Assembly (NCBI GenBank): GCA_017860005.1
Contig: JAFNAE010000004.1
Location: 1 to 46,130 of the forward strand
Origin: Acidobacteriota bacterium
GTDB lineage: Bacteria > Acidobacteriota > Thermoanaerobaculia > Multivoradales > JAGPDF01
DNA length: 46,130 nucleotides
Direction of reading: 5' to 3'
In this document: piece after piece, positions 2,879 to 42,479 of the stretch
How positions within the stretch are numbered: position 1 is the first letter of the stretch
Layout: the number at the start of each line of letters is the position of its first letter
Translations under genes and position numbers: made by a program
Notes under the pieces: generated by a model
Told to the model about the DNA's origin: nothing
Database searches by the model: none
Seen by the model: only the letters and a program-made list of their open reading frames with translations

Positions 2879-3844
2879 ATGAGCAAGGACAAGCCGCAGG
2901 ACCGGGATCGACCCGCCGCGGGCTCGGCGGCGTCCACGCTGCCCCAGGGCTCCCTCGGCGCGTGGCTCCGGACCCAGCGCGAGGCGCGCGGGGTCGGCCT
3001 GCGCGAGATCGCCGACGCGAGCAAGATCAGCATCCGCTATCTCGAGGCGCTCGAGCACGACCGCTTCGAGATCCTCCCGGCCCCCGTCTTCACGCGCGGC
3101 TTCCTGCGCGAGTACTCGCGCGTGGTGGGCCTCGACCCGGACGAGGTCGTCAACCTCTACCTGCTCGCCGTCGACGAGCGACCGGAGCTGCCCTCCGAAG
3201 AGGCGAGCCTGCGCCCGAGGGCGTCCGGCGGTCCCTCGGCGCTCGGGTACGGCCTCCTGCTGGTGCTCGCCGTGGTGCTCCTGCTCGGGCTCGCGGCCCT
3301 GCTCTGGTGGTGGGCCCGGGGCCGGACCGGCGGGCAGCCGGAGTCGGTCGCGCCGCCGCCGGCCGTTTCGGTCGCGGCGCCCGAGCCGCTCGCGACCGAG
3401 GTCCAGGCGGCGCCGGAGCCGCCCCGGGCGGCCCTCGTGCCCGAGCTGGGCGCAGGCGCGCCGGCCGGCGCGCCGCCCCCCGCCGCGGCGGGCGCCGAGC
3501 CCGCCGTCGCACCGGGCCCGGCGACCGTCGTCGGCGAAGGAGGCGCGAGCCCGGCGGCCGCCGCGCCGATGCGCGTCGTGCTCGAGTTCGCGGAGGACTG
3601 CTGGATGGAGTACGTGGTCGACGGCGGCCGGCGCACCGGGGAGCTGCGCACCAGCGGCGAGGTCGTCCAGCTCGACGCCGAGCGTTCGATCCTGCTGACC
3701 CTGGGCAACGTCCCCGCGGTCCGCGTCGAAGTCGACGGCCGGAGCTTCCCGTTGCCAGTGAGCGACGCGCGTGTGGTGCGCGACCTGCGCATCGACCGCG
3801 ACGCGCTGGCGCGGCTCGCGGGAAGCCCCCCGGCCCTGCCGTGA
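2879..3844 (+). CDS. RodZ-like membrane protein: HTH_25 domain, one TM segment, DUF4115-type tail
   Basis: The product is 321 aa. Residues 25-95 form a RodZ/HTH_25-type helix-turn-helix (GAWLRTQREARGVGLREIA, then ISIRYLEALE, then FTRGFLREYSRVVGLDPDEV). One membrane segment follows at 121-146, then a Pro/Ala-rich periplasmic linker (about 155-220) and a beta-rich C-terminal domain of the DUF4115 kind (WMEYVVDGGRRTGELRTSG). RodZ links the actin-like MreB filament to cell-wall elongation machinery; here that role is inferred from architecture. GAGGGGG sits directly before the ATG at 2879, an unusually short spacing. Its last bases overlap the GTG start of the next gene in a GTGA arrangement, so the two are translationally coupled. 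Confidence 0.85.
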   Translation: MSKDKPQDRDRPAAGSAASTLPQGSLGAWLRTQREARGVGLREIADASKISIRYLEALEHDRFEILPAPVFTRGFLREYSRVVGLDPDEVVNLYLLAVDERPELPSEEASLRPRASGGPSALGYGLLLVLAVVLLLGLAALLWWWARGRTGGQPESVAPPPAVSVAAPEPLATEVQAAPEPPRAALVPELGAGAPAGAPPPAAAGAEPAVAPGPATVVGEGGASPAAAAPMRVVLEFAEDCWMEYVVDGGRRTGELRTSGEVVQLDAERSILLTLGNVPAVRVEVDGRSFPLPVSDARVVRDLRIDRDALARLAGSPPALP

Positions 3845-39214: not shown

Positions 39215-40576
39215 GTGCTCACCGCGCATCGTCTCCGGGTCGGCGCCTTGGTGCTCGGCCTGGCCGTCTCGGCGGTCCTGGTCGCGCTCGCGCAGGCGGG
39301 TGGCGACCAGCTCAACCTGCTCGCGCGCGGCTGGCTGCTGGCCGCGCGCGGCGAGCTCGTCCCCTACGGCAACCCGCTCTCGTCGGGCGGCAACGCCCCG
39401 GGCGCCCTCTCTTCGGTGCTGGTCGGGTGGCCGCTCGCAGCCTGGGCGGACCACCGCGCGCCGATCGTCCTGATCTGGGTCCTCCACCTCGGGGCCTGGC
39501 TGGTGCTCGACCGGACGCTGCGCGGCGCGCTGACGCCGCTCGAGCGCGCGGCGCTCGCGGTCGTCTACTGGCTCAACCCCTGGCGCGTGGAGGCCGCCGG
39601 CTTCCTGTGGAACCCGAACTACCTGCCGCTGGTCGGCGCGGTGCACCTGGCCACCGCGCGCGCGCTGGCCGCCCGGCCGCGCTTCGCGGCCACGTTCGTC
39701 CACGTCCTGGCGCTCGGCCTGGGGGCGCAGCTGCATCCTTCGGTGTTGTTGCTGGGGGTACTCTCGGCGCTGCTCTGGGCGCGCGGCTACGTGCGCGTGT
39801 CGTGGCCCGGATTCGCGGCGGGTTGCGCGGCGACGGCGGCGACGCTCGCGCCCTGGCTCGCCGCGGTGGCGGCGCGGCCGGAGCTCGCCGCGGCCGGCGC
39901 CGGCTTTCCGTTCCGCGGCCTGCTGCTCGTCCAGCCGATGCTCAAGGGGCTCTCGTACTGGCTGCGCTACCCCTCGCTCGCGCTGCACCGGGAGAGCGCG
40001 CGCTTCGACTTCTCGGCGCGCCTGGGGCCGGAGACGGACGCCTGGCTGGCGCCCGCGACCGGGGCGCTGCTCGCGGTGGCCGGAGTCGCGACGGTGGCGT
40101 TCGCGCTCTGGGCCAACTTCGCCTTCTTCCGCGCGCGCCGCCGCTCGCCGCTGGCGCGCCCGCGCCCGCAGGAGGGGGAGCGCGGCTGGCTCGACGGCTA
40201 CGTGACGCTGGCGCTGGTGGCGGCGGTAGCGACGTTCGCGGCTTCGCCCACGACGCCGCAGGCCTGGCAGATGATGCCGTTCCTGCACGTCGCGGTGCTG
40301 CCGGTCGTGCGCGGCATCGGGCAGCTCGGCCGGCGGTTCGGCGAGGCGCGCGTCGTGAAGGGCCTCGCGGCCGCGGCCGCCATCGTGCTCGCGGCCGACC
40401 TCGCGCTCGCCGCGGGCGCGCCCAACTTCCGCTGCGGCGGCCGCCACGCCGTGGTCATCCCGCTCCGGGCTGCTTCGCCCATGTTCGAGGAGCTCGGCCT
40501 CCAGCGCACCTGCCCCTGGCCCCTCGACCGCCCCGGCGGCTGGTGGCCCGACGTCCTGCCCGAGGACCCAGAGTAG
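39215..40576 (+). CDS. Multi-pass membrane protein, possible GT-C-type glycosyltransferase
   Basis: The product is 453 aa from GTG at 39215, with GAGGG 6 nt before it. It has about nine to ten hydrophobic segments, an early loop (LARGWLLAARGELVPYGNPL) and long Ala/Leu-rich helices. The first-loop pattern with a substrate-facing acidic or polar stretch, and NPWRVEAAGFLWNPNYLPLV, are reminiscent of dolichyl-phosphate-mannose/ArnT-like GT-C enzymes, but the expected Asp pair is not obvious. The C-terminal soluble tail has two Cys. Treat the function as unknown. The last codons lie in the first copy of the 12-nt tandem repeat. Confidence 0.75.
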   Translation: MLTAHRLRVGALVLGLAVSAVLVALAQAGGDQLNLLARGWLLAARGELVPYGNPLSSGGNAPGALSSVLVGWPLAAWADHRAPIVLIWVLHLGAWLVLDRTLRGALTPLERAALAVVYWLNPWRVEAAGFLWNPNYLPLVGAVHLATARALAARPRFAATFVHVLALGLGAQLHPSVLLLGVLSALLWARGYVRVSWPGFAAGCAATAATLAPWLAAVAARPELAAAGAGFPFRGLLLVQPMLKGLSYWLRYPSLALHRESARFDFSARLGPETDAWLAPATGALLAVAGVATVAFALWANFAFFRARRRSPLARPRPQEGERGWLDGYVTLALVAAVATFAASPTTPQAWQMMPFLHVAVLPVVRGIGQLGRRFGEARVVKGLAAAAAIVLAADLALAAGAPNFRCGGRHAVVIPLRAASPMFEELGLQRTCPWPLDRPGGWWPDVLPEDPE

Positions 40577-40605
40577 GTGCAGAGTAGGTGCTGCAGAGTA
40601 GGTGC
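40569..40605 (+). repeat. Three copies of a 12-nt repeat (CAGAGTAGGTGC)
   Basis: Exact copies lie at 40569-40580, 40580-40591 (sharing one C) and 40594-40605. The last copy runs into the left terminal inverted repeat of the transposase element, and the first contains the stop of the upstream gene. The copies may have arisen from slippage or from repeated element end processing. Confidence 0.85.
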
Positions 40606-40619
40606 CAGCCGATTCCTGC
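40600..40619 (+). repeat. Left terminal inverted repeat of the RAYT element
   Basis: AGGTGCCAGCCG followed by ATTCCTGC matches the reverse complement of 41842-41861 at 18 of 20 positions; the first 12 bases are exact. Confidence 0.8.
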
Positions 40620-40849
40620 TCGACCAGCTGCCGTCGTCTTCCAGACCGGTCATTCAAAGCGTCGCGAAGTTCGCCAGAAAGTCCAGAGTCGCGCGGCCGT
40701 CGAGCCTCGGCAGCATCCGGAGAGTGAAGTTCGGTCCTCGCGGCATCGCTCATCCAGAAGAGGCGAGAAGAACCGGCTCGACCAGCTGATCGCTGAGACC
40801 CGGGACCCTCTCGAGCCTGCTCGTCTCCTCGAGCGTCGTCGCCTGCGGT

Positions 40850-41806
40850 TCAGACCGGCCAGCCCGTAGAGATGGCTGGCGACTCGGCGACGAAGGGGCC
40901 CGGGGGAAGGAAGGAGCCGACCGGGAAGCGGGCGAGGAGCTCGCGCAGGTCCCCGCCGCGGCGGAATCGGATGGAGGCCTCTCGATAGACCTGGACGAAT
41001 CGCCGGTAGGCAGCGCGCACGGTGTCGCGCACCGCCTTGGAGGCCGCATGCACGAGTGGCGCAGGGCGTCGTGCGACGCGACTTGGCGCATCGTGCGGAT
41101 TCTGCCGCGCGAGGCGGGCGCGGCCGAGCGGCTCTCTTCCGTTCTCCGCCCTGCGCACGGTTTCCGCCTCGACCGAGTCGACGAGGTCGGCGAGTCGGGC
41201 GCGAAGTTCCTCTGTGCTCAGCTGAGTCCAGCAAGGTAGCGGCGACAATTCGAAGCGCTCGACCGAAACGAAGTCCTGGCGCTCGAGAAGACCACACCTG
41301 TGGGCGGCCCGGTGGGAGCGCGTCCGGTCGAACCAGTGGCCAGTAACCGGCTCGCCGAAGAGGAGATTCCGGACAGCGTTCGCCCCTGGCCATTCTTCGG
41401 GTCGTCTGACCAGGTTCTCCTTGCAGCCGTGGCGAAGCAGGTACAGCAGCCTATCGACCTGCGCTGCGGGTTCTTCCGAGACAAGGATCGCCTGGTAGCG
41501 ACGCCCCCAGAACTTCTCGCGCCAGCGGACCGCGCGGCCGACCTCGCGGGCGAGGTTGGAGTTGAGGTAGTTCATGAAGGCGGCGAGGCGGGCGGCGCTT
41601 TGGACGGTTAGGAGCAGGTGGTAGTGGTTTCCGAGGAAGACGAAGGCGTGCACTTGCACCGGATAGAGGCGGACGGCGCGGGCGAGAACGCCCCGGCACA
41701 GGTCCGCGATCAACGGCGTCGGCTGGAGCAGGAACCGGCCCTGCACCGTCCGGCAGGTGACCTCGACGAGAGAATCCGGCGGATGGAAGCGGATGCGGCG
41801 TCCCAC
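40850..41806 (-). CDS. Y1-type (IS200/RAYT-like) transposase
   Basis: The product is 318 aa from GTG at 41806 (VGRRIRFHPPDSLVEVT). A TTG at 41848 would add 14 residues; the N-terminus is uncertain because no SD is clear. The Transposase_17/Y1 domain is seen at residues 1-140: the HUH motif is H61-Y62-H63 in FLGNHYHLLLTV, and the candidate nucleophile is Tyr122 in DRLLYLLRHGCKENLV. The middle has the family FWGRRYQAILVSEE segment. A C-terminal Arg-rich region (about 200-318) may bind the palindromic ends. These enzymes cut and join single-stranded DNA. There is no sign of frameshift in the core domain. Confidence 0.88.
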   Translation of the reverse strand: MGRRIRFHPPDSLVEVTCRTVQGRFLLQPTPLIADLCRGVLARAVRLYPVQVHAFVFLGNHYHLLLTVQSAARLAAFMNYLNSNLAREVGRAVRWREKFWGRRYQAILVSEEPAAQVDRLLYLLRHGCKENLVRRPEEWPGANAVRNLLFGEPVTGHWFDRTRSHRAAHRCGLLERQDFVSVERFELSPLPCWTQLSTEELRARLADLVDSVEAETVRRAENGREPLGRARLARQNPHDAPSRVARRPAPLVHAASKAVRDTVRAAYRRFVQVYREASIRFRRGGDLRELLARFPVGSFLPPGPFVAESPAISTGWPV

Positions 41807-41841
41807 GGGATCAAAGGACGGAAACCACCCCCCGCGACCTC

Positions 41842-41861
41842 GCAGCAAGCGGCTGGCACCT
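41842..41861 (-). repeat. Right terminal inverted repeat of the RAYT element
   Basis: GCAGCAAGCGGCTGGCACCT is the partner of the left repeat at 40600-40619 with two mismatches. It ends 27 bases before the stop of the neighbouring methyltransferase gene. Confidence 0.8.
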
Positions 41862-41888: not shown

Positions 41889-42479
41889 CTACTTCGCGAG
41901 CACGAGGCAGTTCTGGCGCAGCCAGGGGGCGCGCTCGAGGCGCTCGAGGTCGCGCTTCACCTGCTCCGTGAGGTCCCGGTCGCAGGCGACCGATCGCGCC
42001 CGGAACCAGACGAGCCAGTCCTCCGCGGGGCGGCAGTTGATGTGGCCGCGGCCGCCCTGCTCGGGCGGCGCGGCGGTGAAGAAGATCCACCGCCGCGACA
42101 GTCGCACCAGGACGTCCACCAGCTCCTCGCTGCGCTCGGGCGGGATGTGCTCGGCGACCTCGACGCAGCAGGCGAGGTCCCACACGCCCTCCGACGCCGC
42201 GAAGTCCCGGACCTGGATGCGATCGCGGATCGCGGGGCTGGCGACCTCGAGCGCCGCCGCGGAGACCTCGGTTCCCGTGACCTCCCTGCCCGCCTCGAGG
42301 AACGACTCGAGCAGGAAGCCGTTGGCGCAACCGACGTCGATCGCCGAGTCGAACGGGAGCCTGGCGAGCAGCGAGGCGGCTAAGATGCGGTAGTCGGCCC
42401 GGTAGCGCTCGCGCGCCGCGAAGTTCTTCGCGCGGTAGACCTTGGGTCGGCGCGCCAGGGCACTCAGTCGCTTCCACAT
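41889..42479 (-). CDS. Class I SAM-dependent methyltransferase
   Basis: The product is 196 aa. The SAM-binding Rossmann motif I is AIDVGCANGFLLESFLEAG. GTEVSAAALEVA is the acidic second strand, and VWDLACCVEVAEHIPPE is the motif II/III region common to Methyltransf_11/23 proteins. The substrate is unknown; small-molecule or sugar methylation is possible. It begins 69 nt after the RlmL-like stop on the same strand. The RAYT element inserted just beyond its 3' end did not disrupt it. Confidence 0.85.
   Translation of the reverse strand: MWKRLSALARRPKVYRAKNFAARERYRADYRILAASLLARLPFDSAIDVGCANGFLLESFLEAGREVTGTEVSAAALEVASPAIRDRIQVRDFAASEGVWDLACCVEVAEHIPPERSEELVDVLVRLSRRWIFFTAAPPEQGGRGHINCRPAEDWLVWFRARSVACDRDLTEQVKRDLERLERAPWLRQNCLVLAK

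Follow-up and report, generated by a model that had tools for sequence, protein, structure and literature searches.

Short tandem arrays of host flank and element tip adjoin a family of TIR-associated Y1 transposons in Acidobacteriota and may record cleavage at inserted ends

What process turns the host DNA beside the end of an inserted transposon into a short tandem array? The question is raised by positions 40569-40605 (forward strand) of the 46,130-nucleotide stretch of an Acidobacteriota genome analysed here (the window), where three copies of host flank plus the hexamer AGGTGC lead up to the left end of a 1,262-bp element (40600-41861) carrying an intact Y1/HUH transposase gene. The sequence CAGAGTAGGTGC occurs there exactly three times (40569-40580, 40580-40591 and 40594-40605). 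Copies 1 and 2 share one base, the spacing being 11 and then 14, and the AGGTGC tips lie at 40575-40580, 40586-40591 and 40600-40605; the last of these is the end of the element itself, and the third copy, as the earlier note on this DNA had described, continues into the terminal inverted repeat (TIR). Read from the left, the order is CAGAGT-AGGTGC, AGAGT-AGGTGC and TGCAGAGT-AGGTGCCAGCCG. Allowing up to two mismatches, the window contains 8 matches to CAGAGTAGGTGC, where 2.35 would be expected, and none of 100 shuffles reached this number; GGTGCCAGCC-like sites with up to one mismatch are not enriched over the whole window (8 vs. 7.4 expected).

The element has the defined ends that had been claimed for it: TIRs of 20 nt, reading AGGTGCCAGCCG, at 40600-40619 (forward strand) and 41842-41861 (reverse strand), complementary at 18 of 20 positions (90%), non-palindromic and without a subterminal hairpin. 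Its transposase gene (40850-41848, reverse strand) encodes 332 residues from a TTG start in an intact open frame. The statement that the ends bound this gene exactly holds on one side only, in that the start codon sits within the right TIR, outside which there is no tandem array, and the stop lies 230 bp from the left TIR, across a non-coding stretch (40620-40849). Neighbouring stop codons do lie close to both ends, as had been noted. That of the upstream gene (40574-40576) falls in the first repeat copy, its T coming from the flank and its AG from the first copy of the tip, and the end of the downstream gene, at 41889, is 27 bp away from the right end of the element. These boundaries are based on a comparison of copies, not on an empty site: alignment of the three family copies in this genome places the limit of homology at AGGTGCC at both ends. 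Two other genomes, G003 and G006, have homologues of both the upstream gene and the next-but-one gene; in G003 there is no AGGTGCC between them, at a protein identity of 57-67% and with intergenic DNA that cannot be aligned. The upstream gene of the window (39215-40576) ends in WWPDVLPEDPE, and its stop codon arises at the repeat; the G006 homologue stops just past WWPDVLPEE, and that of G003 continues into a region with a CKVCH motif, which we take to be cytochrome-c-like.

The protein contains a Y1_Tnp domain (PF01797, E 1.4e-6). The HUH motif (His75-Tyr76-His77) is encoded at 41618-41626 and Tyr136, presumably the catalytic tyrosine as in the rest of the family, at 41441-41443 (both on the reverse strand); His75, His77 and Tyr136 are invariant across 49 aligned proteins chosen out of 88 open frames. 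The predicted structure (mean pLDDT 88) finds its best solved match in the E. coli REP transposase 4er8, followed by ISDra2. From about residue 150 onward there is a conserved C-terminal region that matches no Pfam family at E 0.001 and, at the same threshold, the transposase has no HTH family. Conserved features of this region (residues about 150-320) include WPG, W172, P264 and FPxG, and its structure is predicted with high confidence over most of its length.

The earlier note called the element a RAYT, a label that in its strict sense does not suit it. There is no GT[AG]G foot with a palindromic stem and no REP hairpin; the transposase scores 43.1 bits against NF047646 (REP_Tyr_transpos), below the cut-off of 80; and the ends show no excess folding, with z-scores that average close to 0 at both the upstream (48) and the downstream (63-64) ends (the test used the 48 and 64 ends with the tip motif at the expected distance). 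RAYTs or REPtrons, as portrayed in the accessible text of PMC2817692 and PMC8266576, do share with this element a Y1 enzyme, inverted ends around the gene and dispersed short relatives, and 4er8 is its best structure match, but the window element lacks both the REP palindrome and the end hairpin, and its protein is about twice as long and has a C-terminal domain. IS200/IS605 elements (IS608, ISDra2) have the Y1 fold in common with it; these are described, in the accessible parts of the sources, as lacking TIRs (PMC2817692) and carrying subterminal hairpins (PMC6006769), whereas the window element has TIRs and no hairpin excess, and we rejected membership of that family as well.

The element fits better among the TIR-associated tyrosine transposases (TIRYTs, or TIRtrons) than in either of these groups. 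Its Y1 domain contains the HUH motif and the presumed catalytic tyrosine, and its gene lies between TIRs unrelated to GTAG REPs; according to the accessible text of PMC3733652 and PMC6006769, TIRtrons likewise combine an HUH-plus-tyrosine Y1 enzyme with TIRs, not REP palindromes, around the gene, their TIRs are repeated in the genome, and Acidobacteria are among the published hosts. In contrast to many published TIRs, that of the window is AGGTGCCASCCG-like and has no GGGGWSAS motif, which is described as a frequent but not a defining TIRYT feature (PMC3733652, accessible text). TnpAY1 subclass 2.1 is reported to have a C-terminal HTH (PMC6006769, accessible text), and since the window transposase has no Pfam HTH, we do not place it there.

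Three copies of the family are present in the window's genome (G000), with 100, 75 and 74% identity, the 75% copy having one in-frame TGA; there is also a fourth, weak Y1 match. As the earlier note anticipated, the ends recur beyond the window, in the other full-length copies and in short non-autonomous elements, although the dispersed units are TIRs and not the mobilised palindromes that it had envisaged. We found 26 exact AGGTGCCAGCCG ends, a few of them isolated and perhaps due to chance; with up to one mismatch there are 100 sites, a number near that of the reversed control (94). The non-autonomous relatives are of two types, one of about 200 bp (three copies with near-identical interiors) and the other an 82-bp pair, and the different left flanks of the dispersed short relatives are indirect support for a putative cleavage and transposition activity. 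On contigs C181, C105, C269, C86 and C277 (loci L213-L230), a second, partly palindromic repeat (CCGGTGTCAGAGCAC-like) adjoins the 200-bp elements, and it recurs elsewhere in the genome. Named records of protein relatives (8 loci) are draft MAGs of Thermoanaerobaculia or Acidobacteria. The family occurs in 45 of 72 genomes of the order (E <= 1e-30), and all 13 carriers among 395 sampled genomes of the phylum (E <= 1e-40) belong to this order. The plasmids searched gave no match, nor did PADLOC return any.

CAGAGT itself is local flank: among the matches listed for G000, AGAGT is found only in the window's two. The identical order is found with other flanks, namely CCGAT (contig C3), TGCAGCTAG (C43), TGCCGCG (C105), TGGGT (C181) and ACGGGCC (C279), and flank plus AGGTGC are likewise ordered around relatives in other genomes. 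What recurs is a rule (flank + AGGTGC) and not a particular sequence. One contig, C181, holds two elements of about 200 bp that share their right-hand flank (TTATCCCTGA in the direction of the element). At position 3204 this flank meets the tip once; at the end near 251-281 it is followed by AGGTGC-CTGA-AGGTGC-CAGCCGATTGGCTGCCTGA-AGGTGC-CAGCCGATGG. Because homologous flanks are present with and without an array, this one pair of copies is most simply read as an array that grew from single-copy flank beside an end already present, the reverse direction (i.e., loss of copies) being possible. Two loci, L185 and L201, have long mosaic arrays in which CCATTTG is followed by AG, AGG, AGGTGC or AGGTGCC; these look like the outcome of breaks at several points of the tip within a single site.

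Arrays of this kind are a trait of the family. Perfect short tandem duplications adjoin the gene in 65 of 99 related elements, far above control DNA: in 97.6 kb of element flanks (193 segments, 88 of which have at least one) there are 113 merged clusters, compared with 2 in 89.8 kb of coding (transposase) DNA, 23 in 110.4 kb of distal DNA, and an average of 1.7 in shuffled flanks. The typical unit is about 3-10 bp of site-specific host flank plus the outer six bases AGGTGC. Of 32 sampled genomes, 27 have an array and 23 have one that holds a tip-like hexamer in tip orientation, as do 38 of the 99 elements; the other 61 elements, without a strict tip-bearing array, count against a transposase-cleavage reading. 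(One overlapping locus, L094/L092, was flagged and retained.) Among other RAYT loci of the phylum, 20 of the 30 fetched were analysed, no HUH-bearing frame having been found in the other 10; their 19.4 kb contained 5 arrays, and three of these came from a single locus, whose 37-bp unit includes an entire palindrome. At locus L236 (G164), a canonical RAYT of another class, a 37-bp tandem array contains a whole palindrome plus flank and is of the published whole-REP type.

Genome-wide searches gave a corresponding pattern. Across 17 genomes that carry the family, AGGTGC-N(2-14)-AGGTGCCA was found 226 times and its reversed control 26 times (116 vs. 1 in the seven of these genomes that belong to the taxonomic family of the window); 14 genomes of the order that lack the transposase showed no enrichment (3 vs. 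14). However, the latter genomes, defined by the lack of a transposase at E <= 1e-30, all belong to one genus and are also missing the tips, so that this comparison does not separate the enzyme from the sequence. The 60 stretches examined at pattern matches contain 73 tip pairs, of which 36 are perfect duplications and 41 repeat at least four flank bases.

A survey of breakpoints covered 143 tips in element flanks, leaving out those with fewer than 30 bases upstream, and 35 have a perfect duplication running from flank into tip. A break exactly after AGGTGC (AGGTGC^CA, which would be 40605/40606 in the window) is compatible with 22 of these 35 arrays, whereas uniform placement over 25 positions predicts about 8% at base 6 (binomial tail 4e-16, a value that treats non-independent paralogues as independent). 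The remaining 13 count against transposase cleavage; other element-side breaks include those near bases 3, 5, 10 and 18. Restricting the analysis to the innermost end per element, an array is present at 27 of 112 ends and base 6 is compatible with 18 of the 27, including 4 of the 6 with diverged tips. Units of the base-6 class measure 9-16 bp, most commonly 10 or 11. The flank-side break mostly falls 3-10 nt beyond the element end, in counts that omit the arrays incompatible with base 6 (18 of 68 in a first set, 7 of 36 in a second). Microhomology is near chance in the first set (none in 13 of 33 first-type events, null 46%) and in slight excess in the second (none in 3 of 20, null 29%). A flank-side preference for TG was seen in one set (10 of 33, null 8%) and is not clear in the second (3 of 20, null 6%), and we regard it as tentative. 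Later copies frequently begin again within the preceding tip, at AGG^TGC, and the unit grows by exactly 3 bp in the window and at L028, L055 and L072. Among the 36 elements with both ends placed, a direct repeat of at least 4 bp across the ends, as expected of a target-site duplication, was found in none; L086 alone has a 5-bp inverted repeat beyond the TIRs (GAAAG / CTTTC).

Taken together, the preferred inner break, the narrow outer distance, the finding that microhomology is not clearly required and the failure to find target-site duplications point to enzymatic cutting at AGGTGC^C, for which the element's own Y1 transposase is the obvious candidate; REP transposases are reported to cut single strands beside their REPs and to transfer them (PMC8266576, accessible text). 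We put at about even the chances that this TIR-associated Y1 (HUH) transposon has a transposase that acts on the element's own ends once these have been inserted and so builds the arrays, and we hold more tentatively, at somewhat under even chances, that it keeps cutting its inserted ends at AGGTGC^C and at a nearby flank site, making tandem repeats from arbitrary host DNA. Under this scheme, the preferred inner breakpoint would be the strand-cleavage site, and a second break would occur 3-10 nt outside the element end. Either the free 3' end would be transferred onto the outer break (of the sister strand or of an excised mini-circle), or the gap would be filled and rejoined; both routes would duplicate the segment between the two breaks. 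Repeated rounds, at times restarting inside the previous tip at AGG^TGC, could then build the array, and ordinary slippage may afterwards add or remove copies. The suggestion in the earlier note that the tandem copies record events at a cleavage site becomes the best reading once the family-wide pattern is seen.

The main rival, which we consider less likely, is replication slippage or template switching without transposase chemistry: a polymerase halted about 6 nt inside the end by a TIR foldback or a bound protein would, on resuming a few bases further upstream, copy flank and tip again. The small units would suit such a process, as would the 1-3 bp of microhomology in some events (slightly above the null in the second set), and arrays with many equal copies (e.g., L089, L106, L187) look slippage-extended. 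However, a TIR stem of 16-20 bp does not explain a preferred break at base 6, and 13 of 33 first-type events have no microhomology. The lack of excess folding within the ends weakens this rival further, as does the arrays' lack of dependence on an inverted partner, which lies within 1.7 kb at 28 of 37 array tips vs. 99 of 127 tips without an array (a loose test, allowing up to 2 mismatches).

The local pattern F-AGGTGC-F also resembles a footprint, such that repeated insertion with imprecise excision could have duplicated a target F and left AGGTGC between its two copies. This seems improbable, because F would then be expected on the other side of the present element, where none of the 36 elements has a direct repeat of at least 4 bp, and because the C181 pair points to growth beside an end still in place. 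An assembly artefact or chance is the least probable explanation and a very remote one: although every count comes from assemblies, and the related named records are draft MAGs in which repeats can be misjoined, the arrays are found, with differing flanks, in 27 of the 32 genomes sampled, are nearly absent from shuffles and coding DNA, and show no enrichment in the 14 family-free genomes. They also span 20-60 bp, and sequencing reads are usually longer than this.

Amplification of element sequence together with flank has precedents in the accessible text of published accounts, for SMAG repeats (PMC2613905), GTAG REPs (PMC3733652) and REPIN clusters (PMC3116915), whose units likewise combine element sequence with varying lengths of host flank. 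In those cases a complete REP, dimer or REPIN is repeated along with the flank, and no rule was discernible for SMAG clusters (PMC2613905); in the present family, by contrast, the outer tip is all of the element that is repeated with the flank, and base 6 is the preferred breakpoint. The accessible TIRtron descriptions (PMC3733652, PMC6006769) do not mention tip-plus-flank arrays, and in the accessible text of the open-access literature we found no report of such arrays with a preferred fixed breakpoint.

If transposase cleavage is the correct reading, these elements would generate minisatellites enzymatically, by a process other than target-site duplication, slippage or whole-element amplification. 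How REP transposases spread and cluster their ends is described as poorly understood (PMC8266576, accessible text), and in this family dozens of genomic sites preserve what a reaction at the ends has produced. Should the enzyme be responsible, transposon ends would have a simple means of building tandem arrays from the host flank.
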